The notes below the pieces were generated by a model. It made no database searches. It was given only the letters and a program-made list of their open reading frames with translations, and had not been told where the DNA came from. This document shows, one piece after another, positions 1,801 to 21,915 of a DNA stretch of 64,000 nucleotides. The position numbers and the translations under genes were made by a program. The stretch is from contig NZ_JAHKPH010000011.1 in assembly GCF_018860385.1 (NCBI RefSeq), positions 372,001-436,000 of the forward strand, given 5' to 3'. Positions within the stretch are counted from its first letter, which is position 1. Every line of letters begins with the position of its first letter. This DNA comes from Reinekea forsetii (GTDB lineage Bacteria; Pseudomonadota; Gammaproteobacteria; Pseudomonadales; Natronospirillaceae).

Positions 1801-4800
1801 GTGAAACTTAAAACGTCTTTGCTTGTGGCGTCGATACTGTTGCCCTCAATTACGATGGCAGCATCAGACCTTGAACGGGTCGTCTGGATCGAACAGCCCG
1901 ATACTGAAGCAACTATTGCCTGGCGACAAACCAGCGGTGAAAACCCTCGCGTTGAGTTTGGCCAAGGGCAATCGCCTGAAAACTGGTTAACTCAAGCAGT
2001 AGAACAGGTGACAACGATGTCCCATCCCGATGATGGTGATGTTACGCTTGAAACCCATATCGCTCGATTATCTGGTCTTTCTCCAAATACCGATTACAGC
2101 TACCGAATATGTGATAGCGAAGGGTGTGGTGATAGCTCATGGTTCAAAACCGCCCCGAATTCACCCACTGAGTTTACTTATGTTGCCGGTGGCGATTCAC
2201 GAACTAATCGTGAACCACGGCAAATGGGCAATAAACTCGTTAGCCAAATCCGCCCACTGTTTGTGTTGTTTAATGGTGATTTCACCGACGACGGCAACCA
2301 CGAACAATGGGTAGCATGGTTAGAAGATTGGCAGTTGACGCGCAGTGAAGATGGTCGTGTTTACCCTATTATTGCTTCGCACGGAAACCATGAAAATGAT
2401 GTCATAGACATGCTGAGCTATGTGTTTGGTGTGCCAGAAACATCTTACTATGTTGCCAACATCGGCGGCAGTATGATGGATATCTTTTCGCTCAATTCTG
2501 AATTAGAGCCTGGCGTAGGTTATGGTGCCTACTCTGATCAAGACGCAACAGCGTGGGAAGCTCAAAACCAGAAGTTTGTTGCTGATGCTAAGGCCTCTGT
2601 TGCAGACTGGAAGTTAGCCAATTACCACCGCCCAATGCGCCCTCATACCTCGGGCAAAACCGAAGGTGAAGGCCGAATTGCGGCATGGGCACCTACTTTT
2701 ACAGAGACTAACTTTAAGATTCTGGTTGAATCTGACACGCATATGTCTAAGTACACCTACCCAGTGGTTTATAGCCAAGCGGAAGGCAGCTACCAAGACT
2801 TCAAACGTGATGATGTCAACGGAACGATGATCATTGGTGAAGGTTCATGGGGTGCGCCTACTCGACCAACCGATGACGATAAGCCTTGGACTATCGACAG
2901 TGGCTCTTTCTGGCAGTTCAAGCTAGTGCATGCTTCGCCAGACGCGATGAAAATTCACACGGTTCGATTTGGTTCTGAGCATGAAACATTGCGCGGGGTT
3001 AAAACGGATATTTCAACGGTTGGCACTCTAACTCAAGCCGACCAAGACGCGAACCCATTTGCCGTTCCTGCAAATTTACCGCTGTGGCAGCCATTGGCTG
3101 GTTCATCTATAACAATGACTTTAGATGGCTTTAAGGGTGCTGAGATCAATAGTGTGCAACTTGTTGGCTCTAAGGCCGAGTGGGCTTATTTGGATGATGG
3201 CTCTTCGGCAGACGGTTGGAATACTCTCGATTTTGATGATGCTTCTTGGGCTAAAGGTAATGCACAGCTAGGGTATGGCGATGGCGATGAAGTGACTGAA
3301 ATTAGCTTTGGCTCGGATGAGAAAAACAAACACCCGACTACTTATTTCCGTAAATCGTTTAACCTAGATGACCCATCTAAAGTAATCAAACTTACTCTAC
3401 GCCTCTTAAGAGATGATGGTGCGGTTGTATACATAAACGGTCAGGAAGTTGTGCGTTCAAATATGCCTGACGGCGACATTACGCCAACTACTTTTGCCGG
3501 TTCAGGTATTGGTGGCGGTGCAGAAAGCACATTTTATGAATACGCCTTGTTTGCAGATGCATTGCAAGCCGGTAAAAACGTAGTGGCTGTAGAAGTACAT
3601 CAATCAGATGCGGGCAGTTCTGACCTATCATTTGATATGGATTTAACCGCGGTGGTATCAACGACCGATAAAGCCTTGGCCGATGCAACCACTGAGCTTA
3701 CCGCTAAAGCATTGTCTGTTAGTGAAATTCAGTTGAATTGGTCCGACGATGAAGCCTTTGACGAAGTCGGATATCAGCTAGAGCGTAAAGTTGGAAACGG
3801 CGCTTGGGAAATCCTTACTTGGCGTTTAGAAGCTAATGAAACGGCTTATTTAGATAAAAAGCTGGTTGAAGGCGCAACTTATACTTACCGAGTGCGTCCT
3901 TATAACGCCGCTGGCTTAGGCAATGTAAGCAACGAGTTAAGCATTGCAACGCTTTCAAACCCTACCCCAAAACTGTATGAAGAAACCTTCGAGTCGGGTG
4001 GCTGGGGTGAATTAACCATGTTCAATAAGGCATCGAATGCCGATTGGGTGGTCGTTGAAAGAGCCGAAGCTTTTTATGCCCAAAACAATGGTTACGGTGC
4101 CGACACCGCCAGTGACGATTGGATCATTACGCCGGCGTTTGCTCTTAACTACTATGCCGATGCTCAATTAGCGTTTGAAAGTGCCTACAACTACGGCGGT
4201 CCTTTGATCAATGTGTTGTATTCAAATGATTATGATCCTGCTGTAAATGAAGACCCTACGACAGCTCAGTGGACAGCGATTGCAGAGTGTAAAGCGGTCG
4301 ACAATGTTCAACCATGTTGGAACGAGCCTTCAACAGGCAGCTACGTTTTTGAAGCCAGTGAAGTTGATATCAGTTCTATAAAAGGCGACAACGTGCGCTT
4401 TGCCTTCCAGTATGTTTCAACTGGAACAGGTGGAGGAGATGGCCGTTATTGGCAGCTAGATAACATTGTTGTCCGTGGTCTTTATAATGCACCTGCCTTA
4501 GTAGGTGATGCTTTAGATGCTGGCATTCCTGCGGATTGGTCTGCAGTTAGTGTGGCATCAGATAAAGATTGGGCGCCAGGAACTCGAGCTGAACAAGCGG
4601 GTATTTTTGCTAATGGTTTCGGTGGCGATGCTGCCAGTGAAGATTGGTTGATTTTGCCAACTGTATCGTTAAGCGAAGATGATAATGCCGCGTTTGAATT
4701 CGATTTTTATCAGAAATATGGCGGACCTGAGCTCCAAGTGATGGTCTCAACCGATTACGACGGTGACGCCGCAAATGCTACATGGTCTGATTTAAACGTT

Positions 4801-6840
4801 GATTTTCCTGTACTGGACGACACATGGATGACAATGGGGCCTATTAGCCTGAAAGGTTATACCGGTAATGTGACTCTAGCATTTTTGTACACGACTTCAG
4901 GTACCGGCGGTGGCGAAGGTGCATACTACGGTGTGGCTAATGCGTTCGTAAAAGCTCACTTAAAGGGTGTATTTCAGCAGCGCGTTGTATGGACAGAAGG
5001 TTTTGAAGATGTCAGCACGTTTGGAACCTTTAGTGCTTATTCACGTGCGAGTAATGCCGATTGGGTTGTTGAAGAACGAGCCGATAACCTAGGCGCGGTG
5101 GCCAACGGTTTTGGCGCCGATGCTAAAAGTGATGATTGGCTCATTTCACCTCAGTTCCATATTTTAGATTGGCAGAATGCTCAATTTTCTTTTGATGTCT
5201 ACACTAAGTATGGCGGACCCGCTCTTGAACTATACATCAGCAATGATTATAGCGGCGAAGGCGATCCATTAGACGCTAATTGGACTCAAATTGAGTTTGA
5301 TCAATCGCAAGAAGTTAGTGATGCTTGGAACCATTACCAAGTTGATGTATCTGGCTACACCGGTGCGGCACATGTGGCCTTCCGTTACTTAACCAACGGA
5401 ACAGGCGGTGGTGAAGGCCGACGATTAGGTGTTGATAACCCAACTTTAATCAGTACATACGGAGAAGAAACCTTGAAAGCCAACTTCTCGATAGCCACTA
5501 CAACCGTAACCACTATTCAACCCGTAAGTTTTGAAGCCAACGTTAAAGGTGGAGAGGCGCCGTACACCATAAACTGGAATTTAGGCGATGGGCAGGTTGC
5601 CAATGGTGACGCGGTTGAACATACCTATTCAAAAGCTGGAAACTATACAGTAACGCTGAGTGTTGCAGACGCTAACGGCAACAGTGTTGAACAAGCGCGT
5701 GAAAGCTACGTGAATGTCTTGCAATCAACCGATATAGGTGTGCCTTCTTATGCTGGTGATGTACGAGTAGCCACATTTAATGCTTATTTAAACCGCAGCA
5801 GTGAAGGCCAAATTTTGGCTGACGCTCAAAGTGGTGAAGATGCGCAAATTAAAAACGTGGCTGAAATTATTCAACGCGTACGCCCGCATGTCGTCTTGCT
5901 TCAAGAGTTTGACTATGTCGCCGATGGCTCAGCCGTTAAAGCGCTGCAGGAGAACTACTTAAGCAACGGCTTAAATGGTGCGGAAGGTATCGATTACCCC
6001 TATGTATATCTTGCAGAAAGCAATACCGGCATCATTACACCATTTGATTTCAACAAAGATGGAAAATCAGGACAGTATGGTGATGATGCCTATGGTTTTG
6101 GTATGTTCTATGGCCAGTACGGCATGGTGCTGTTGTCTCAATACCCAATTGACTACGACAACGCTCGCACTTTCCAAAAGTTTTTATGGAAAGATATGCC
6201 CGATGCTAAATTACCTGTTAATCCTGAAACGGGTGAAAGCTGGTATACCGAAGAAGAGTTAGCGGTATTCCGTTTATCTTCTAAAAGTCACTGGGATATT
6301 CCGGTTAAAGTCGGCAAACATACGCTACACGTTTTAGCCAGTCACCCTACGCCACCCGTATTTGATGGCGATGAAGACAGAAACGGTAAACGCAACCACG
6401 ATGAAACTCGTTTTTGGCGTGATTACGTTGAGCCAGCACGTTCAGCCTACATCTATGACGATAATGGCACCAAAGGTGGCATGAAGGGCGATCGTCATCA
6501 CTTTGTAGTAATGGGAGATCTTAACGCTTCTCCAGTAGAGGGTGATGCAACCGATAATCCAATCGGGTTGTTAACGGCATCTGAGAAAGTGATGAGCGAT
6601 GTTCGTCCAACCAGCCCAGGTGGTGTGGACAACGATCCTAACAATGAAAACGCCGCCGCACATACCGCTGACTGGAAAATGCGCGCAGACTATGTTCTTC
6701 CTGGAACTTGGGGCAATAAAGTCGAGCAAAGTGGTGTTTATTGGCCTGGAATCGCCGATGTGAATTATCGATTGGTCGGCCCTGGAGTTCAAAGCTCTGA
6801 CCACCGTTTAGTTTGGGTTGATTTAAGCTTTACCCAGTAA
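1801..6840 (+). CDS. Secreted multidomain metallophosphoesterase / endonuclease-exonuclease-phosphatase protein
   Basis: A 1679-residue exported protein. Reading order: signal peptide (1-20, ending TMA before ASD); purple-acid-phosphatase-like N-domain (about 22-115); calcineurin-like metallophosphoesterase with D132, GDFTDDG (159-165), GNHE (195-198), H276 and H314; a beta-sandwich (about 455-610); a fibronectin III-like domain (about 625-718); three repeated 'choice-of-anchor J'-like modules (about 727-893, 900-1055, 1064-1218), each with an 'ASDDW/KSDDWLI' core; a PKD domain (1226-1307); and a C-terminal DNase I-like EEP domain with N1327, QE at 1368-1369, H1515, GDLN (1572-1575) and SDH (1666-1668). 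All core metal and catalytic residues of both enzymes appear present. It probably releases phosphate from extracellular organic phosphate and DNA. GTG start after AAAGGAAAG; no C-terminal sorting signal seen. Substrate is inference. Confidence 0.88.
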   Translation: MKLKTSLLVASILLPSITMAASDLERVVWIEQPDTEATIAWRQTSGENPRVEFGQGQSPENWLTQAVEQVTTMSHPDDGDVTLETHIARLSGLSPNTDYSYRICDSEGCGDSSWFKTAPNSPTEFTYVAGGDSRTNREPRQMGNKLVSQIRPLFVLFNGDFTDDGNHEQWVAWLEDWQLTRSEDGRVYPIIASHGNHENDVIDMLSYVFGVPETSYYVANIGGSMMDIFSLNSELEPGVGYGAYSDQDATAWEAQNQKFVADAKASVADWKLANYHRPMRPHTSGKTEGEGRIAAWAPTFTETNFKILVESDTHMSKYTYPVVYSQAEGSYQDFKRDDVNGTMIIGEGSWGAPTRPTDDDKPWTIDSGSFWQFKLVHASPDAMKIHTVRFGSEHETLRGVKTDISTVGTLTQADQDANPFAVPANLPLWQPLAGSSITMTLDGFKGAEINSVQLVGSKAEWAYLDDGSSADGWNTLDFDDASWAKGNAQLGYGDGDEVTEISFGSDEKNKHPTTYFRKSFNLDDPSKVIKLTLRLLRDDGAVVYINGQEVVRSNMPDGDITPTTFAGSGIGGGAESTFYEYALFADALQAGKNVVAVEVHQSDAGSSDLSFDMDLTAVVSTTDKALADATTELTAKALSVSEIQLNWSDDEAFDEVGYQLERKVGNGAWEILTWRLEANETAYLDKKLVEGATYTYRVRPYNAAGLGNVSNELSIATLSNPTPKLYEETFESGGWGELTMFNKASNADWVVVERAEAFYAQNNGYGADTASDDWIITPAFALNYYADAQLAFESAYNYGGPLINVLYSNDYDPAVNEDPTTAQWTAIAECKAVDNVQPCWNEPSTGSYVFEASEVDISSIKGDNVRFAFQYVSTGTGGGDGRYWQLDNIVVRGLYNAPALVGDALDAGIPADWSAVSVASDKDWAPGTRAEQAGIFANGFGGDAASEDWLILPTVSLSEDDNAAFEFDFYQKYGGPELQVMVSTDYDGDAANATWSDLNVDFPVLDDTWMTMGPISLKGYTGNVTLAFLYTTSGTGGGEGAYYGVANAFVKAHLKGVFQQRVVWTEGFEDVSTFGTFSAYSRASNADWVVEERADNLGAVANGFGADAKSDDWLISPQFHILDWQNAQFSFDVYTKYGGPALELYISNDYSGEGDPLDANWTQIEFDQSQEVSDAWNHYQVDVSGYTGAAHVAFRYLTNGTGGGEGRRLGVDNPTLISTYGEETLKANFSIATTTVTTIQPVSFEANVKGGEAPYTINWNLGDGQVANGDAVEHTYSKAGNYTVTLSVADANGNSVEQARESYVNVLQSTDIGVPSYAGDVRVATFNAYLNRSSEGQILADAQSGEDAQIKNVAEIIQRVRPHVVLLQEFDYVADGSAVKALQENYLSNGLNGAEGIDYPYVYLAESNTGIITPFDFNKDGKSGQYGDDAYGFGMFYGQYGMVLLSQYPIDYDNARTFQKFLWKDMPDAKLPVNPETGESWYTEEELAVFRLSSKSHWDIPVKVGKHTLHVLASHPTPPVFDGDEDRNGKRNHDETRFWRDYVEPARSAYIYDDNGTKGGMKGDRHHFVVMGDLNASPVEGDATDNPIGLLTASEKVMSDVRPTSPGGVDNDPNNENAAAHTADWKMRADYVLPGTWGNKVEQSGVYWPGIADVNYRLVGPGVQSSDHRLVWVDLSFTQ

Positions 6841-6856
6841 TCGTTTGATTTAATTT

Positions 6857-6886
6857 AAAAGGGCTGCATTGGCAGCCCTTTTTTTT
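6857..6886 (+). terminator. Rho-independent terminator after the secreted phosphatase-nuclease gene
   Basis: Stem GGGCTGC (6861-6867), loop ATTG, GCAGCCC (6872-6878), followed by a run of eight T. It lies 20 bases after the stop codon at 6840. Confidence 0.92.
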
Positions 6887-6996
6887 ATGGCGCAAACCAA
6901 GCTGCCACCTGTTATAGAGTGAATATTAGGCTAACAAATGTGACGAATGAGCAATGTTGATCTATACCTAATTAAGTGGACCATTAGGAGGAACCA

Positions 6997-8157
6997 GTGT
7001 TGGACTTATTTAAGCAGTTATTTTCAGATGAATTTATGCCCCATGGCATGTGTTATCTCTGGCAGCCAGAATTGCTATGGTTACACGTCATCTCAGATGC
7101 GTTCATTTTCTTTTCTTACGTCAGCATCCCAATTACCCTTGTTTACATTTTAAATATGCGCCGAGACTTAGTCTTTTCAAAAGTTATGGCCTTGTTTGGT
7201 GCTTTTGTTTTGCTATGTGGAATTACGCATGCGATTTCTGTTTGGAATGTTTGGAACGGAACCTATTGGCTCAGCGGTAGTGTAAAAGCCGTCACGGCCG
7301 TTGTTTCTGTTGCTACGGCTTATATGCTCTGGAAGTTAGCACCCACGTTGCGTGATGTCCCCACGGTTAAGCAATTGTCTAATGAAGTTGAGCAACGCAA
7401 AGTAGTTGAAGCTAACTTGCAAGAAAAAACACTCCATTTAAAAGAAGAGTCTGGCCGTATTGCCAGCATGAATGAAGAGCTGAAAGCCTTTGCTTATGCT
7501 TCTTCCCACGACCTTAAATCGCCCTTACGTGGTATTAAGCAATTGGCGGTTTGGATTGAAGAAGATTTAAAACACGTTGATTCCGAGCTGCCGCCAGAAA
7601 TTCCAGAACATTTCGAGCTAATGAAAACTCGGGTGACGCGTATGGAGCGATTATTGGATGACCTGCTTGAGTATAGTGAAATAGGAAAAACAGAGGGCAG
7701 TTCTAGAGAAGTTGAAACGTCGACACTTTGCTCAGAAGTATTTGATCTAGTAGGTGGGAACGATTCGGGATTAACGCTAAAACTTGAGAGCAGTTTACCA
7801 AAATTTAAAACTCACCATACACCTTTTACACAGGTGATCCGTAATTTAATTGACAATGCCATCAAGCACCACGATAAGCCCAATGGCACTATTTTGGTTA
7901 AAGCTCTTGAACATAACAATCAATATGAATTTATTGTAGAGGATGACGGTCCAGGTGTGCCTGAGTCACAGATGGAAAGGGTCGTTGAATTGTTTACTAC
8001 CTTAAAGCCTAAAGATGAGTGCGAAGGCAGTGGTATGGGGCTGGCCATTATTAAAAAAATTATTGCAAATTATGGAGGGGAGATGCGCTTGGCAAAAAAT
8101 GGACAGGGTGGATTAAGCGTGAGCTTTACTTGGCCAAAAAATTTAGATAAATGCTAA
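6997..8157 (+). CDS. Sensor histidine kinase with ethylene-receptor-type transmembrane domain
   Basis: 386 residues. The first ~116 form a three-helix membrane domain that matches the plant ETR1 / cyanobacterial ethylene-binding domain in order and spacing. D34, Y41, C74 and H78 stand at the distances of ETR1 Asp25, Tyr32, Cys65 and His69. C74 and H78 ('LLCGITH') are the family's copper ligands. A coiled-coil linker (about 124-165) leads to the HisKA H-box with H171 ('SSHDLKSPLRG') and an HATPase domain with N-box 'RNLIDNAIKHH', G1 'EDDGPGVP' and 'GSGMGLAI'. There is no GAF domain. The GTG at 6997 follows a perfect AGGAGG (6986-6991). It heads an operon with the next two regulators. Copper/ethylene binding is inferred from motif conservation; a related small hydrophobic ligand or redox signal is possible. 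Confidence 0.9.
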   Translation: MLDLFKQLFSDEFMPHGMCYLWQPELLWLHVISDAFIFFSYVSIPITLVYILNMRRDLVFSKVMALFGAFVLLCGITHAISVWNVWNGTYWLSGSVKAVTAVVSVATAYMLWKLAPTLRDVPTVKQLSNEVEQRKVVEANLQEKTLHLKEESGRIASMNEELKAFAYASSHDLKSPLRGIKQLAVWIEEDLKHVDSELPPEIPEHFELMKTRVTRMERLLDDLLEYSEIGKTEGSSREVETSTLCSEVFDLVGGNDSGLTLKLESSLPKFKTHHTPFTQVIRNLIDNAIKHHDKPNGTILVKALEHNNQYEFIVEDDGPGVPESQMERVVELFTTLKPKDECEGSGMGLAIIKKIIANYGGEMRLAKNGQGGLSVSFTWPKNLDKC

Positions 8158-8182
8158 GAATAAAAATTTAAGTGAAACAATT

Positions 8183-8626
8183 ATGAGTAAAGATTTAAGT
8201 TATAACCAAGTCAATATTTTGCTAATAGAAGACGACGAAATAGACGCAGAAATTGTTAGGCGTGCGTTTAAGCAATTGCGCATTGCTAACCCTGTAACTC
8301 GAGCACGGAATGGTCAAGAAGGATTAGATATATTGCGAAACAACACCATAGATAAGCCAAGAATTGTGCTGTTGGATTTAAATATGCCCGTGATGAACGG
8401 CTTCGAATTCCTTGATGCAATAAGGGATGATGATGATATTAAAGATACGGTGATTTTTGTATTAACAACCTCTAAATCACAAGCTGATTTACTTGCGGCT
8501 TATAAGAAAAATATCGCAGGTTATATTGTAAAATCCGAGCTTGATAGTGGATTTGAATCCCTCATTAATATGTTGACATCCTACTGGCGAATTATTGAAT
8601 TGCCTGCTCATGAGGAGCCAAATTAA
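8183..8626 (+). CDS. Single-domain response regulator (Rcp1-type receiver)
   Basis: 147 residues, a lone CheY-like receiver with no output domain. The acidic pocket is E16-D17-D18, the predicted phosphoacceptor is D65 ('VLLDLNMPVMNGFEFL'), followed by the conserved 'LTTS' and 'YIVKS' positions. The 'IEDDEID' opening and the long alpha4-beta5 segment ('LLAAYKKNIAGYIVK') are typical of the Rcp1 family, which partners phytochrome-like and related histidine kinases. It begins 25 bases after the ethylene-receptor-like kinase and ends 2 bases before the REC-GGDEF-EAL gene. It is therefore probably the phosphoryl carrier or sink of this cascade. The target of the phosphorylated form cannot be read from sequence. 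Confidence 0.92.
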   Translation: MSKDLSYNQVNILLIEDDEIDAEIVRRAFKQLRIANPVTRARNGQEGLDILRNNTIDKPRIVLLDLNMPVMNGFEFLDAIRDDDDIKDTVIFVLTTSKSQADLLAAYKKNIAGYIVKSELDSGFESLINMLTSYWRIIELPAHEEPN

Positions 8627-8628
8627 GG

Positions 8629-10347
8629 ATGAATATTCTGATAGTCGACGACGATAAAATAGATCGAATGCGAGTGAAAAGATCTGTAAGTCAGTTCATT
8701 GGCGATATATCAATAAAGGAAGTGTCTTCAGGAGAGGATTGCCTAAACTGTCTACTCACTGAATCATTCGATGTTGTACTGCTTGACTACAATCTTCCCG
8801 GAGCAACAGGAATTGAAGTGCTCGAAAGAATGAAGCAGGGTTCTATTGGCGAAACAGCGGTTATCATGTTGTCTGGTAATACAAATGAAGATTTAGCCGT
8901 GACTTGCCTAGAGCACGGTGCACAAGATTTTATTCGTAAACAGGATTTAGATTCAAAGCATTTATATCGCGCTATCATACATGCCAAACTTCGGCATAAA
9001 AATGAAATGGAGCTTGAAAGCAGCCGCCTTAGTTTAAAGGAATTAGCCGAGCACGATCAGCTCACTGGGTTGCTTAACCGATATGCTTTTGAACATCGTG
9101 TTACTGAAGCTATGGCTTTTTGGCGAAGATCTTCAGCTCACGTCAGTTTGATGTTGATGGACTTAGATGATTTTAAGTGGATCAACGACACATTCGGACA
9201 CCCAGTAGGTGATGCCGTTTTAGTCGAAGTGGCTGATAGAATAGGAACCGTGTGCCGAGATGATGATTTTATCTGCCGTTTAGGCGGTGATGAGTTTGCC
9301 TTTGCGATTATGTGTCGTGAAGAGAACTATGCCTACCTTATTGCTCAGCGAATCTTCGATCGGTTAAGTGCGCCTTTTATAGTTGGTGGTCAAAAGCTGA
9401 CCATAAATTGCAGTGTTGGTATAGCCGATTTTACACACGATTCGAATGATATTAATGATGTGTTAAAGCGTGCAGATTTAGCCATGTATCAAGCAAAGGC
9501 TGAAGGCCGAAATAGGTTTCATTATTTTAATGAAGGTTTACAAGCGGTAGCTATTCGCCGAATCCTCGTAGAATCGGAACTCCGAGAAGCGATTCAAAAA
9601 AAGAGTTTTATCCCTTATTACCAGCCTAAAATAGATGCCAAAACTGGATTGCTGTATGGTGCAGAAGCATTAGTTAGGTGGGGTCACCCTACTCAAGGGA
9701 TAGTAGGCCCCGCCTACTTTTTAGATATTGCTGAACAAACTGGACTGATTATTGATATAGACCGAATAGTCATACAGAAGGCTTGTGCACAACACGCCCA
9801 ATGGCTCGCGGATCATACGTTTGATCATCCAATTAAAATGGCTATGAATATATCTGTTCGACATTTTAAAGATGATTCGTTTCTACCGATGTTAACAGAG
9901 TTACTGGAGAAGTATGAAATTCAACCCTCTAGTATTGAGTTAGAGATCGTTGAGTCAGAGCTTGTGCAAGACACCGACACGGCAATTGCGGTGTTAGATG
10001 AGTTAGCAAAAATGGGAATCGATGTTGCCATTGATGATTTTGGAACCGGCTATTCTTCTTTAAGTTACTTAAAACAATTTAATGTTCAAGTATTAAAAAT
10101 AGACCGTTCATTTTTATTTGATATTCCTGAATCGGAGATCAGCAGCCGATTGTTCAAAGGGATGCTTAATTTAAGTCAATCACTAGAGTTGCCCAATGTC
10201 GTTGAAGGGGTAGAAACTCAAGCACATGTTGAAAAGTGTTTAGAATATAACGCAGAAATTTTGCAAGGGTACTACTTTGCTAAACCGTTAACGGCCCAAG
10301 AGTTTGCAAATTACATTCCACCTAAGTTCAATAAGGGCGATACTTAA
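8629..10347 (+). CDS. Response regulator with REC-GGDEF-EAL domains (c-di-GMP synthesis/hydrolysis)
   Basis: 572 residues: receiver (1-125, acidic DDD near residue 7, phosphoacceptor in 'VVLLDYNLPG'), a short helical linker, a GGDEF domain (about 150-310) and an EAL domain (about 320-565). The GGDEF motif is intact (219-223) and is preceded by an RxxD inhibitory site, R210 to D213, at the canonical five-residue spacing. The EAL signature 346-348 ('GAEALVRWGHP'), 'DDFGTGYSS' (469-477) and 'EGVET' (526-530) are intact too. Both catalytic halves therefore look active, and the net direction would be set by phosphorylation. It is the third gene of the operon begun by the kinase at 6997, so it is the likely c-di-GMP output of that sensor. 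Confidence 0.93.
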   Translation: MNILIVDDDKIDRMRVKRSVSQFIGDISIKEVSSGEDCLNCLLTESFDVVLLDYNLPGATGIEVLERMKQGSIGETAVIMLSGNTNEDLAVTCLEHGAQDFIRKQDLDSKHLYRAIIHAKLRHKNEMELESSRLSLKELAEHDQLTGLLNRYAFEHRVTEAMAFWRRSSAHVSLMLMDLDDFKWINDTFGHPVGDAVLVEVADRIGTVCRDDDFICRLGGDEFAFAIMCREENYAYLIAQRIFDRLSAPFIVGGQKLTINCSVGIADFTHDSNDINDVLKRADLAMYQAKAEGRNRFHYFNEGLQAVAIRRILVESELREAIQKKSFIPYYQPKIDAKTGLLYGAEALVRWGHPTQGIVGPAYFLDIAEQTGLIIDIDRIVIQKACAQHAQWLADHTFDHPIKMAMNISVRHFKDDSFLPMLTELLEKYEIQPSSIELEIVESELVQDTDTAIAVLDELAKMGIDVAIDDFGTGYSSLSYLKQFNVQVLKIDRSFLFDIPESEISSRLFKGMLNLSQSLELPNVVEGVETQAHVEKCLEYNAEILQGYYFAKPLTAQEFANYIPPKFNKGDT

Positions 10348-10780: not shown

Positions 10781-10807
10781 AAAAAAGACCGCTTGTGCGG
10801 TCTTTTC
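10781..10807 (-). terminator. Bidirectional Rho-independent terminator
   Basis: Stem AGACCGC (10786-10792), loop TTGT, GCGGTCT (10797-10803). On the minus strand it is followed by a long T run, which suits the M28 peptidase gene ending at 10825. On the plus strand it is followed by TTTTCTC. Confidence 0.88.
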
Positions 10808-10824
10808 TCTTACGGAGTAGATAA

Positions 10825-19830: not shown

Positions 19831-21915
19831 TTACACCGCCTCTTCATCTTCGTCATCAAAGTTATAAGCCATTTCATCAAGCGGTGCTTGTAAGTAATAG
19901 CCCTGAATGTAGTTAACCCCTAATTCCCATAGAGACGCCAAAACTTCGGCCTGTTCAATTTGTGGAACGATAGAGTTAATGTCATTGCTGTGAATTTCGG
20001 TTAGTACGGCTTGTAATTCATCCGATGCTTGGCCTTTTTCAGTGAGCTCTTCAACAAAGCTTGGATGAACCCGAGCGTAGCTAATATCTAAATGATTCAT
20101 CAGCTGTTTTGAGTTTTCTGCCAATCCAAAACGGTTTATGGCTAGTTGACACTTAAGCAGTGACATACCTTTACTGAAGGCTTTTGCGGCTTTTAAATAG
20201 CTCAATGCTGCTTCTTCTCGTACTTGGAAGCAGACTGAATCTCCGGGTAATTTTTGCTTTTTCAAGATGCTATTTACCCAAGGTAAAAAAGCAGGGTCTT
20301 GAATAGACGCAGGTGTTAAGTGAATCAAGCACTGCGTATTGTGGCCTCGGGCACGGTGCGAAGCTAAGTTTTCTAAGCTCTTTTCAACGACCCAGCGATC
20401 CAATTTACTGCTCATGTCGCTGTTTTCTATGGCATCGATGAATTCATCCGGCGTTATATCTGAACCGTCTTTATCTTTTAGGCGAACCAATACATCATAG
20501 TGTTCCTGGCTATCGCCACGTAAACTCATAATTGGTTGGAACTGAATACGTAAGCCATCGTGCTCTAGTGCATGTTGGACTTTGGCTACAATGGAGTTTT
20601 CGGCCAGGTTGGCGATGTCGGATCTATCAAAATAGCAAACTGGCTCGCCCGATTTTATGGCTGAATTATAGGCTTGATCTGCCTGAACCAAGGCTTTATT
20701 GCCACTGTCGCATTGTTCATCTATATGGGCTAAACCAGCCGCTAAGGTTACCGGTATAGTTTTACCATCAACATCATAAAGGTTTTCATTGGCCGTTTTT
20801 AACATGCTGGTTATCTCAGCTTTGACGGCGGCTAAATCAGATTTTTCAGATAGTAAGCCAAACATGTCATCGGCATAACGTGCAATTTGAGCGTCTTTCG
20901 GATGAGAGTCACTGAGTATTTGAGCGATTTGCTTCAATATTACATCCGTGCCGGCTACGCCAGCTTTCACTTTAATATCAGCGAAATTTGCAATGCCGAT
21001 GTGGGCGATTAAGTACCGTTTCGAGTCACTAATCACCTTTTGGTATGCGCTGTCTAGTTGTTCGTTAAAATAGAGTTTGTTGTGCAAACCAGTAACGAGA
21101 TCTTGAGAGCTAATTTCTTTGATTTTTTCTTGCAGTACTTCGCTATCGGCTTCAATTCGACGAATAACGATTTGAGTGCAAGATTCACCCTCGTAGCTGG
21201 CACTAGAGAAGGTCATTTGAATTTTAAACTCTTCTCCTTCGGCATGCTTACCTACGGTCGAGAAGCTGTGTTCATTTTTAGATGCAACCTGTTTGAGGCC
21301 ATCTTTTAGCGTGTTGATTTCTTTGCCGGCGACTAGATCCATTATCGGAGTGCACTGAAGCTCTTCTAAATCATCGTAGCCAAACATCTCTAAATAGGCT
21401 GGATTTGCATGAATATGCATGCCTTCGTGAACATAGCTTATGGCATCTACTGAGCTTTCTAGTAGTAATTGAACGCGTTTCTCAGTTTCTTTTAAGCTGA
21501 CACGAGTGGTGCGCAGTAATCGGCGATCTCTTAATGCCGCAAATTCACGTTTAATGGCTTGGGTTAAATGCTGCTCGCTGGATTCAATAATGACATCGGC
21601 CATGCCCATATCGAGTGCGCTGGCGATAATATCTTCATCGTATTGGCTTATTAGGCCAATCATAGGTAAGTCTTTACCGTCACGCACAATTGCGTCTACG
21701 GCGGCGGAGGTATCTACGGTTCCTGTATTGAGCTTGGCAAGCAATAAATCCCAAGTTTGGGATTCTAAAACGGAGTTCAGCTCATCAAGGCTGGCTATAA
21801 AGTGGCTACGAACGGCTTGGCCTGAATTGCGAATCGCATTGGCTAAGGGTTCTGCTTCATTTTGGGTATCGTGAATCAGCAATACCCGGATTGCGCCGCT
21901 GGAACTAGAAGTCAT
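19831..21915 (-). CDS. fimX: FimX-like protein with degenerate REC-PAS-GGDEF-EAL domains
   Basis: 694 residues, close to P. aeruginosa FimX, and in the same position next to serB. Domain order: receiver (1-130) lacking a clear phosphoacceptor ('LLLAKLNTG' where Asp is expected), PAS (about 145-260), GGDEF (about 270-430) and EAL (about 440-685). The GGDEF motif is replaced by ADDMF (348-352) and EAL by DVL (474-476), so neither synthesis nor hydrolysis is expected. As in FimX, the EAL domain probably binds c-di-GMP and tells the type IV pilus machinery where and when to assemble. Pilus genes are not in the window. The PilZ-domain gene upstream on the same strand follows the Pseudomonas order. 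Confidence 0.85.
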   Translation of the reverse strand: MTSSSSGAIRVLLIHDTQNEAEPLANAIRNSGQAVRSHFIASLDELNSVLESQTWDLLLAKLNTGTVDTSAAVDAIVRDGKDLPMIGLISQYDEDIIASALDMGMADVIIESSEQHLTQAIKREFAALRDRRLLRTTRVSLKETEKRVQLLLESSVDAISYVHEGMHIHANPAYLEMFGYDDLEELQCTPIMDLVAGKEINTLKDGLKQVASKNEHSFSTVGKHAEGEEFKIQMTFSSASYEGESCTQIVIRRIEADSEVLQEKIKEISSQDLVTGLHNKLYFNEQLDSAYQKVISDSKRYLIAHIGIANFADIKVKAGVAGTDVILKQIAQILSDSHPKDAQIARYADDMFGLLSEKSDLAAVKAEITSMLKTANENLYDVDGKTIPVTLAAGLAHIDEQCDSGNKALVQADQAYNSAIKSGEPVCYFDRSDIANLAENSIVAKVQHALEHDGLRIQFQPIMSLRGDSQEHYDVLVRLKDKDGSDITPDEFIDAIENSDMSSKLDRWVVEKSLENLASHRARGHNTQCLIHLTPASIQDPAFLPWVNSILKKQKLPGDSVCFQVREEAALSYLKAAKAFSKGMSLLKCQLAINRFGLAENSKQLMNHLDISYARVHPSFVEELTEKGQASDELQAVLTEIHSNDINSIVPQIEQAEVLASLWELGVNYIQGYYLQAPLDEMAYNFDDEDEEAV

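Follow-up and report, generated by a model that had tools for sequence, protein, structure and literature searches.

We describe a compact three-gene operon at positions 6997-10347 (+ strand) of a 64,000-nucleotide stretch of Reinekea forsetii DNA (contig NZ_JAHKPH010000011.1, positions 372,001 to 436,000), here called the window. The genes, separated by gaps of 25 and 2 bases, encode a histidine kinase with an ETR1-type membrane domain (386 amino acids, GTG start, 6997-8157), a single-domain receiver (147 amino acids, 8183-8626) and a REC-GGDEF-EAL protein (572 amino acids, 8629-10347). Judged from the sequence and from analogy with characterised receptors, we lean cautiously towards a two-component system in which an ethylene-type gas would be read through a copper-bound membrane domain and would set the level of cyclic diguanylate (c-di-GMP), a messenger that governs biofilm formation. 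New here is a recurring kinase - receiver - REC-GGDEF(-EAL) cassette that carries different sensor heads.

The sensor kinase and the two proteins encoded beside it

Residues 25-119 of the kinase matched the Pfam model ETR1_N (PF25487) with an E-value of 7.3e-36 and 122.8 bits against a cut-off of 27, while the same model gave matches in 0 of 14 control genomes. The domain was aligned with ETR1 and with AzoEtr1 of Azospirillum brasilense, represented by the 525-amino-acid open reading frame (ORF) L066 in NZ_CP012915, whose length is as given in its paper. D34, Y41, C74 and H78 of the kinase align with ETR1 D25, Y32, C65 and H69, as the preliminary description of this operon had it, and I44, P45 and K97 correspond to I35, P36 and K91. 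The comparison uses the seven ETR1 residues needed for ethylene binding; the literature gives this number and names several of them. AzoEtr1 keeps all seven (7/7). When 67 bacterial ETR1_N domains were aligned (16 of them hand-picked, same-species copies excluded), all seven residues were present in 41 and six in 13, and D, C and H occurred together in 56.

In the AlphaFold model (monomer, 15-row alignment, pLDDT 85.7) helices span residues 24-54, 61-87 and 90-120, and Pfam, alignment and model together place the three-helix, ethylene-binding-like domain at about residues 20-122 (7054..7362, +). No solved structure resembled the membrane domain by sequence (E-values up to 0.1), and none did so significantly by fold (best E-value 0.95). 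Pfam found no PAS, GAF or other input domain in the 386 residues, so the kinase is a minimal form in which the sensor is joined straight to the kinase.

The kinase core (7483..8139, +) consists of HisKA (residues 163-230) and HATPase_c (276-381), and its phosphoacceptor region and N, G1 and G2 boxes are intact: H171 lies in SHDLKSPLR, followed by NLIDNAIKH at 283, EDDGPGVP at 315 and GSGMGLAI at 344. The nearest solved cores include those of bacteriophytochrome kinases. The lone receiver (Response_reg by Pfam) has the acidic pocket, the phosphoacceptor D65 and the T and K motifs. It resembles Rcp1 (1i3c, E-value 2.1e-15), RcpA and RcpB (1k66, 2.1e-15) among other lone receivers, of which 2qvg scored higher (4.6e-22). 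The third protein carries Response_reg (D53), GGDEF and EAL domains by Pfam and matched the solved structure 5m3c with 335 bits. Its motifs are complete, with the RDDD inhibitory site (RxxD) at 210, GGDEF at 219, EALVR at 346 and DDFGTG at 469, and it should thus, as predicted from these motifs, both make and break c-di-GMP. The earlier account of an Rcp1-type receiver directly downstream of the kinase, of a third protein with intact catalytic and inhibitory motifs, and of H171 and D65 as phosphoacceptors was borne out at each of these points.

Distribution of the sensor domain and of its operon

ETR1_N above the cut-off was found in 17 of 96 genomes of relatives, 10 of 274 of the class and 23 of 299 of the phylum, the genome of the window being counted in each set. 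The only close named match found for the window kinase came from Cognaticolwellia (L003). The arrangement of ETR1_N kinase, lone receiver and REC-GGDEF(-EAL) protein occurred in twelve operons from 11 genomes (the window, L038, L003, L040, L043, L044, L046, L049, L054, L151, L216 and L228; the same-species genome G923 was excluded from the tally). All seven residues are present in nine of them, six in the window and L003, and five in L054; D, C and H are kept in 11 of the 12. Twenty further loci had been picked by hand. Sixteen of them with the head, the two same-species copies not included, feed the residue counts given above, L216 and L228 enter the operon tally, and none enters the enrichment test below.

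One of the twelve operons (L038:2805-6747) lies in the same genome as the window but on another contig (C3). It encodes an ETR1_N - PAS repeats - kinase protein of 877 amino acids, a receiver of 141 and a REC-GGDEF protein of 296, with overlapping genes, and its sensor keeps all seven ETR1 residues. G923 carries both operons (L223, L224). In six more proteins (L041, L048, L055, L057, L060 and L232) the ETR1_N head is fused to GGDEF; three of the six have all seven residues, while L057 is without P36, L060 without D25 and L055 without the copper residues.

A c-di-GMP partner was found for 14 of 50 ETR1_N proteins (five fused, nine with a same-strand GGDEF/EAL gene within 1 kb) versus 2 of 38 HisKA kinases (Fisher p 0.010, only suggestive because the rows are related). 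The 50 comprise L003 and the matches over the cut-off from the searches of relatives, class and phylum, minus the window and L088, a fragment of 26 positions. The 38 were sampled from six genomes by taking every fourth of the 150 HisKA matches listed out of 222, a choice biased to strong matches. All 14 positives fell among the 33 proteins labelled by kinship as same-class (L003 included), against 0 of 17 in the rest. Both positives among the HisKA controls, at the L129 and L119 loci, turned out to be this cassette carrying another head.

One output cassette with different sensor heads

Relatives of the lone receiver were collected in 20 stretches, covering 22 of 28 search rows (the window row and five others were left out). 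In 8 of the 20, kinase, lone receiver and REC-GGDEF(-EAL) protein follow in this order with another head, namely CHASE (L118), CHASE8 (L129), MASE3 (L132) or PAS (L117, L123, L134 and L135); in L119 no head domain was recognised. The L134 cassette contains a second kinase-like ORF, and L221 is a further cassette of the same gene set, the head of which was not scanned. CHASE3-headed variants deviate, L122 in gene order and L124 by a long part between REC and GGDEF. The occurrence of the cassette with other heads indicates that its output side behaves as a unit.

Two trees of kinase cores were built. To enter them, a kinase had to match the core with 40 bits or more over 190 residues, and many ETR1_N kinases with more distant cores lie outside both. 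In the tree of 43 cores, the window and L003 kinases pair up (100/98), and the starred set of five around them includes three other-head kinases. The ETR1_N label requires six changes there, at least five by starred branches, and a single clade was rejected by the approximately unbiased (AU) test for all 13 ETR1_N kinases (p 2.4e-4), for the ten cassette kinases (4.4e-5) and for nine without L151 (9.9e-7). The 50-row tree, built without the same-species copies and without five other rows, of which four had long branches, needs seven label changes, six of them forced, and rejects one clade for its twelve cassette ETR1_N rows at p 6.8e-54. Its smallest starred set around the window/L003 pair has twelve rows, ten of them other-headed; the bootstrap had not settled. 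In both trees the window kinase core thus groups among several other-headed cassette kinases. The ETR1_N cassette kinases are therefore not monophyletic, and the cassette probably received this head more than once. The simplest reading is an exchange of sensors on a standing output cassette; a single gain of the head followed by several head replacements would be less simple, and the trees cannot separate gain from loss.

The sensor and kinase parts of the window pair have also diverged to different degrees. Between the window and L003, its nearest relative, the sensor is identical at 94 of 117 positions (80%) and the kinase core at 119 of 231 (52%; Fisher 1.2e-7), with 59% for the lone receiver and 53% for the third protein. 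Among the L003 ORFs of at least 100 amino acids compared with the window outside the operon (E-value 1e-10), only the third protein matched (19879-21126).

Further features of bacterial ETR1_N domains

A PHGxCxxW motif, at residues 15-22 of the window kinase (bases 7039-7062, +, from the alignment) and immediately ahead of helix 1, recurs in almost all of the bacterial domains examined (H16 in 61 of 67, C19 in 62 of 67), and C19 sits in the alignment column of ETR1 C6. H16 and C19 are both present in 54 of the 56 domains with D, C and H versus 6 of the 11 without (Fisher 8e-4; the rows are related, not independent). From this association we infer that the motif may have a role in dimer linkage, in copper loading or metal sensing, or in redox sensing.

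The copper cysteine has been replaced by W, S or A in L054:5814-7832, L055:5655-7757 and L064:6051-7619. These heads are still joined to a kinase or cyclase and are possible natural controls for a ligand-free function. Free-standing ETR1_N proteins of 182-198 amino acids, directly before a separate histidine kinase gene, were seen at L059:7151-7747, L230:5030-5578 and L231:5442-6032, as if the sensor were a separate subunit.

Proposed mechanism and alternative explanations

By analogy with ETR1 and AzoEtr1, a dimer of the kinase would hold Cu(I) in the membrane at C74 and H78, with D34 and K97 setting its position. Binding of ethylene, or of some small olefin like it, at the copper would change the helix bundle and, through the short linker to the kinase, would lower autophosphorylation of H171; this direction is borrowed from ETR1, whose autophosphorylation is reduced by ethylene, and from SynEtr1 of Synechocystis, for which the evidence is indirect (PMC11819568). 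The order of the genes and the conservation of the cassette suggest that phosphate would pass both to the REC-GGDEF-EAL protein, at D53, and to the lone receiver, at D65; the lone receiver may act as a competitor, a sink or a second output. Both aspartates would accordingly be phosphorylated without ethylene and less so with it, and REC would shift the balance of GGDEF and EAL and hence c-di-GMP. Phosphorylation could favour either synthesis or breakdown of c-di-GMP, and the biofilm precedents point both ways. The Xanthomonas kinases RavS and RavA, which feed the GGDEF + EAL regulator RavR, provide a precedent for such a route (PMC6707612). The proposal gains support from the recurrence of the operon, from the different heads on one output cassette, and from the higher conservation of the sensor than of the kinase in the window pair.

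Several observations weigh against it. At the position of ETR1 I62 the window kinase has V71, so that six of the seven binding residues are identical, plus K91. This substitution, which went unmentioned in the preliminary description, is a conservative change in the predicted binding site, and valine occurs there in 7 of the 67 bacterial domains; I62, though, lines the modelled ETR1 pocket, and I62A lowers binding (PMC8879215). In L054 a W replaces the copper cysteine, indicating that the head can persist without that cysteine. Higher sensor conservation had been considered as a general rule and was rejected, since it is true of the window pair only: in six pairs of another cassette lineage the sensor (65-78%) is no better conserved than the kinase (64-78%), and in one of these pairs it is less conserved (p 0.039). 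The genome of the window (G000, 3.4 Mb) gave 49 matches to GGDEF, two of which belong to a single frame, and with so large a c-di-GMP network crosstalk is possible. On balance, the earlier proposal of a gas or copper signal setting c-di-GMP is supported in part: a receptor-like sensor, paired receivers and a predicted c-di-GMP output make the best reading, qualified by V71 at a binding residue.

The first alternative, which we rate as unlikely, leaves the output as it is and changes the signal: the domain would bind Cu(I) but respond to something other than ethylene, be it the copper, a different olefin, a different gas (CO, for instance) or an oxidant that attacks its cysteines. The substitution V71 for I62 alters the predicted pocket, and the PHGxC motif with its link to D, C and H would fit a metal-loading, metal-sensing or redox role; an action of H2O2 on the N-terminal cysteines of ETR1 has been proposed (PMC3546692). 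However, AzoEtr1 has the same PHGxC motif and does bind ethylene, and neither immediate neighbour gene of the operon looks copper-related.

It appears less probable still that the kinase serves mainly the lone receiver, with the REC-GGDEF-EAL protein either paired with other kinases or acting as a local scaffold, and c-di-GMP not the main output. Beside AzoEtr1 there is a lone receiver gene only, the kinase core is similar to phytochrome-type kinases and the lone receiver to Rcp1, in each case among others, and no GGDEF/EAL neighbour was found for 2 of the 11 ETR1_N genes with an adjacent lone receiver (L058 and L062). Yet the other 9 of the 11 do have an adjoining GGDEF/EAL gene, the third gene of the window operon begins two bases past the second, the same trio is found with other heads, and head-GGDEF fusions exist.

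That the membrane domain is a ligand-free anchor or membrane sensor, with the ETR1-like residues as inherited structure, is improbable: one or more of D, C and H is missing from 11 of the 67 domains, some of which are still joined to output domains, but both the window and L003 have the full set of D, Y, I, P, C, H and K, the sensor is conserved at 80% against 52% for the kinase core, and no other sensor domain was found in the window kinase.

Surroundings of the operon

A ribosome-binding site, AGGAGG, lies at 6986..6991 (+), five bases before the GTG start of the kinase gene by direct reading, and no promoter-like site was found on the + strand upstream of the operon in the scan. A terminator-like hairpin of 11 pairs separates the operon from the upstream gene (6857..6882, +; hairpin scan); the terminator scan as a whole gave 5 sites versus 3.4 (standard deviation 1.8) in shuffles, only a slight excess. 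Downstream, a convergent gene for an M28 peptidase lies past 10825. With the hairpin on one side and the convergent gene on the other, the operon looks free-standing. A GC-rich inverted repeat with A/T flanks between the two convergent units (10783..10808, strand undefined), seen by eye and not listed by the terminator scan, is a possible terminator shared by both.

The upstream neighbour (1801-6840) encodes a protein of 1679 amino acids with a signal-like N-terminus (by eye) and purple-acid-phosphatase N-domain, metallophosphatase, fn3, PKD and endo/exonuclease/phosphatase domains. A copper-handling or ethylene-oxidising context was considered and rejected, the neighbours being this large phosphoesterase-nuclease protein and the M28 peptidase. 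The PF02461 profile (particulate methane/ammonia monooxygenase, pMMO/AMO) gave no match in the genome, but the control was silent too, which makes the result uninformative on absence.

Possible significance

The ETR1-type domain is the sole input domain found in the 386-residue kinase, and the predicted output enzyme has a measurable product, so that a single assay could link ligand, kinase and messenger. The outputs of known microbial ethylene receptors, a lone receiver or a transcription regulator, are hard to read, and the operon would be useful as a minimal model of bacterial ethylene sensing. Such an assay could address the opposite effects of ethylene on biofilm, which is lower in Azospirillum and higher in Synechocystis (PMC11819568).

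The operon suggests that a plant-hormone gas may help to decide surface settling; if this is true, a gas from plants and some microbes would be a direct signal for bacterial settlement. Marine bacteria growing on ethylene are known (PMC4036023), and ethylene is perhaps formed from organic matter in sunlight (PMC5812497). In Komagataeibacter, which has a c-di-GMP-activated cellulose synthase, ethylene raises cellulose production; no receptor is reported for this effect (PMC4686702). More tentatively, and with some doubt on our side, ethylene or a related small olefin may serve bacteria of this class generally as a cue for life on surfaces. The sensor would have been joined to the cassette repeatedly and independently, and fused to cyclases as well, forming an 'olefin to c-di-GMP' signalling class; a single genome could run two such systems that differ in their enzyme outputs.

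Comparison with known systems

The literature already describes putative ethylene receptors of bacteria with widely varied output domains (PMC7700396), and the microbial receptors for which ethylene binding has been demonstrated directly are few (PMC11819568). Among the titles and abstract openings listed by text searches none presents an ethylene-type receptor with a direct c-di-GMP output, which leaves such absence unproven; two of the listed papers (PMC3633832 and PMC12172448) were beside the point, with ethylene in their references only.

Arabidopsis ETR1 shares with the window kinase six of the seven binding residues and K91. ETR1 has GAF and receiver domains. Plant receptors signal mainly through a Ser/Thr kinase (PMC11819568), and a c-di-GMP output like the one predicted for the window operon is not known for them.

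A close characterised counterpart is AzoEtr1 of A. brasilense Sp7, an ethylene-binding kinase with an effect on biofilm and with the gene of a lone receiver next to its own (PMC11819568). The earlier statement that ethylene-binding domains are characterised in plants and cyanobacteria omits this proteobacterial receptor. Both kinases carry an ETR1-type three-helix domain with the same copper residues and have a lone receiver immediately downstream. AzoEtr1 differs in its PAS domain and in keeping isoleucine at the I62 position, whereas the window kinase has V71, no PAS domain that we could find, and a third gene for REC-GGDEF-EAL.

SynEtr1 (UirS, Slr1212) of Synechocystis likewise places an ethylene-binding domain on a phosphorelay kinase (PMC5812497, PMC11819568). 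It is also a UV-A photoreceptor, however, with output through a response regulator and a small RNA, while the window kinase has one sensor domain and an enzyme as its predicted output. GeiEtr2 of Geitlerinema resembles the window operon in that the gene of a putative ethylene receptor is grouped with that of a diguanylate-cyclase-domain protein; it is a cyanobacterial kinase with PAS, GAF and receiver domains, and its link to c-di-GMP is by gene neighbourhood only (PMC6682694).

On the output side, the RavS/RavA-RavR systems of Xanthomonas have in common with the window operon that kinases feed a GGDEF + EAL response regulator, and there phosphotransfer has been shown. They differ in that RavS has PAS sensors, RavA has no recognised input, the GGDEF domain is degenerate, and no ethylene-type domain is named for them (PMC6707612). 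Finally, the CHASE-, CHASE8-, MASE3- and PAS-headed cassettes described above have the same gene set as the window operon and differ from it in their sensor heads.

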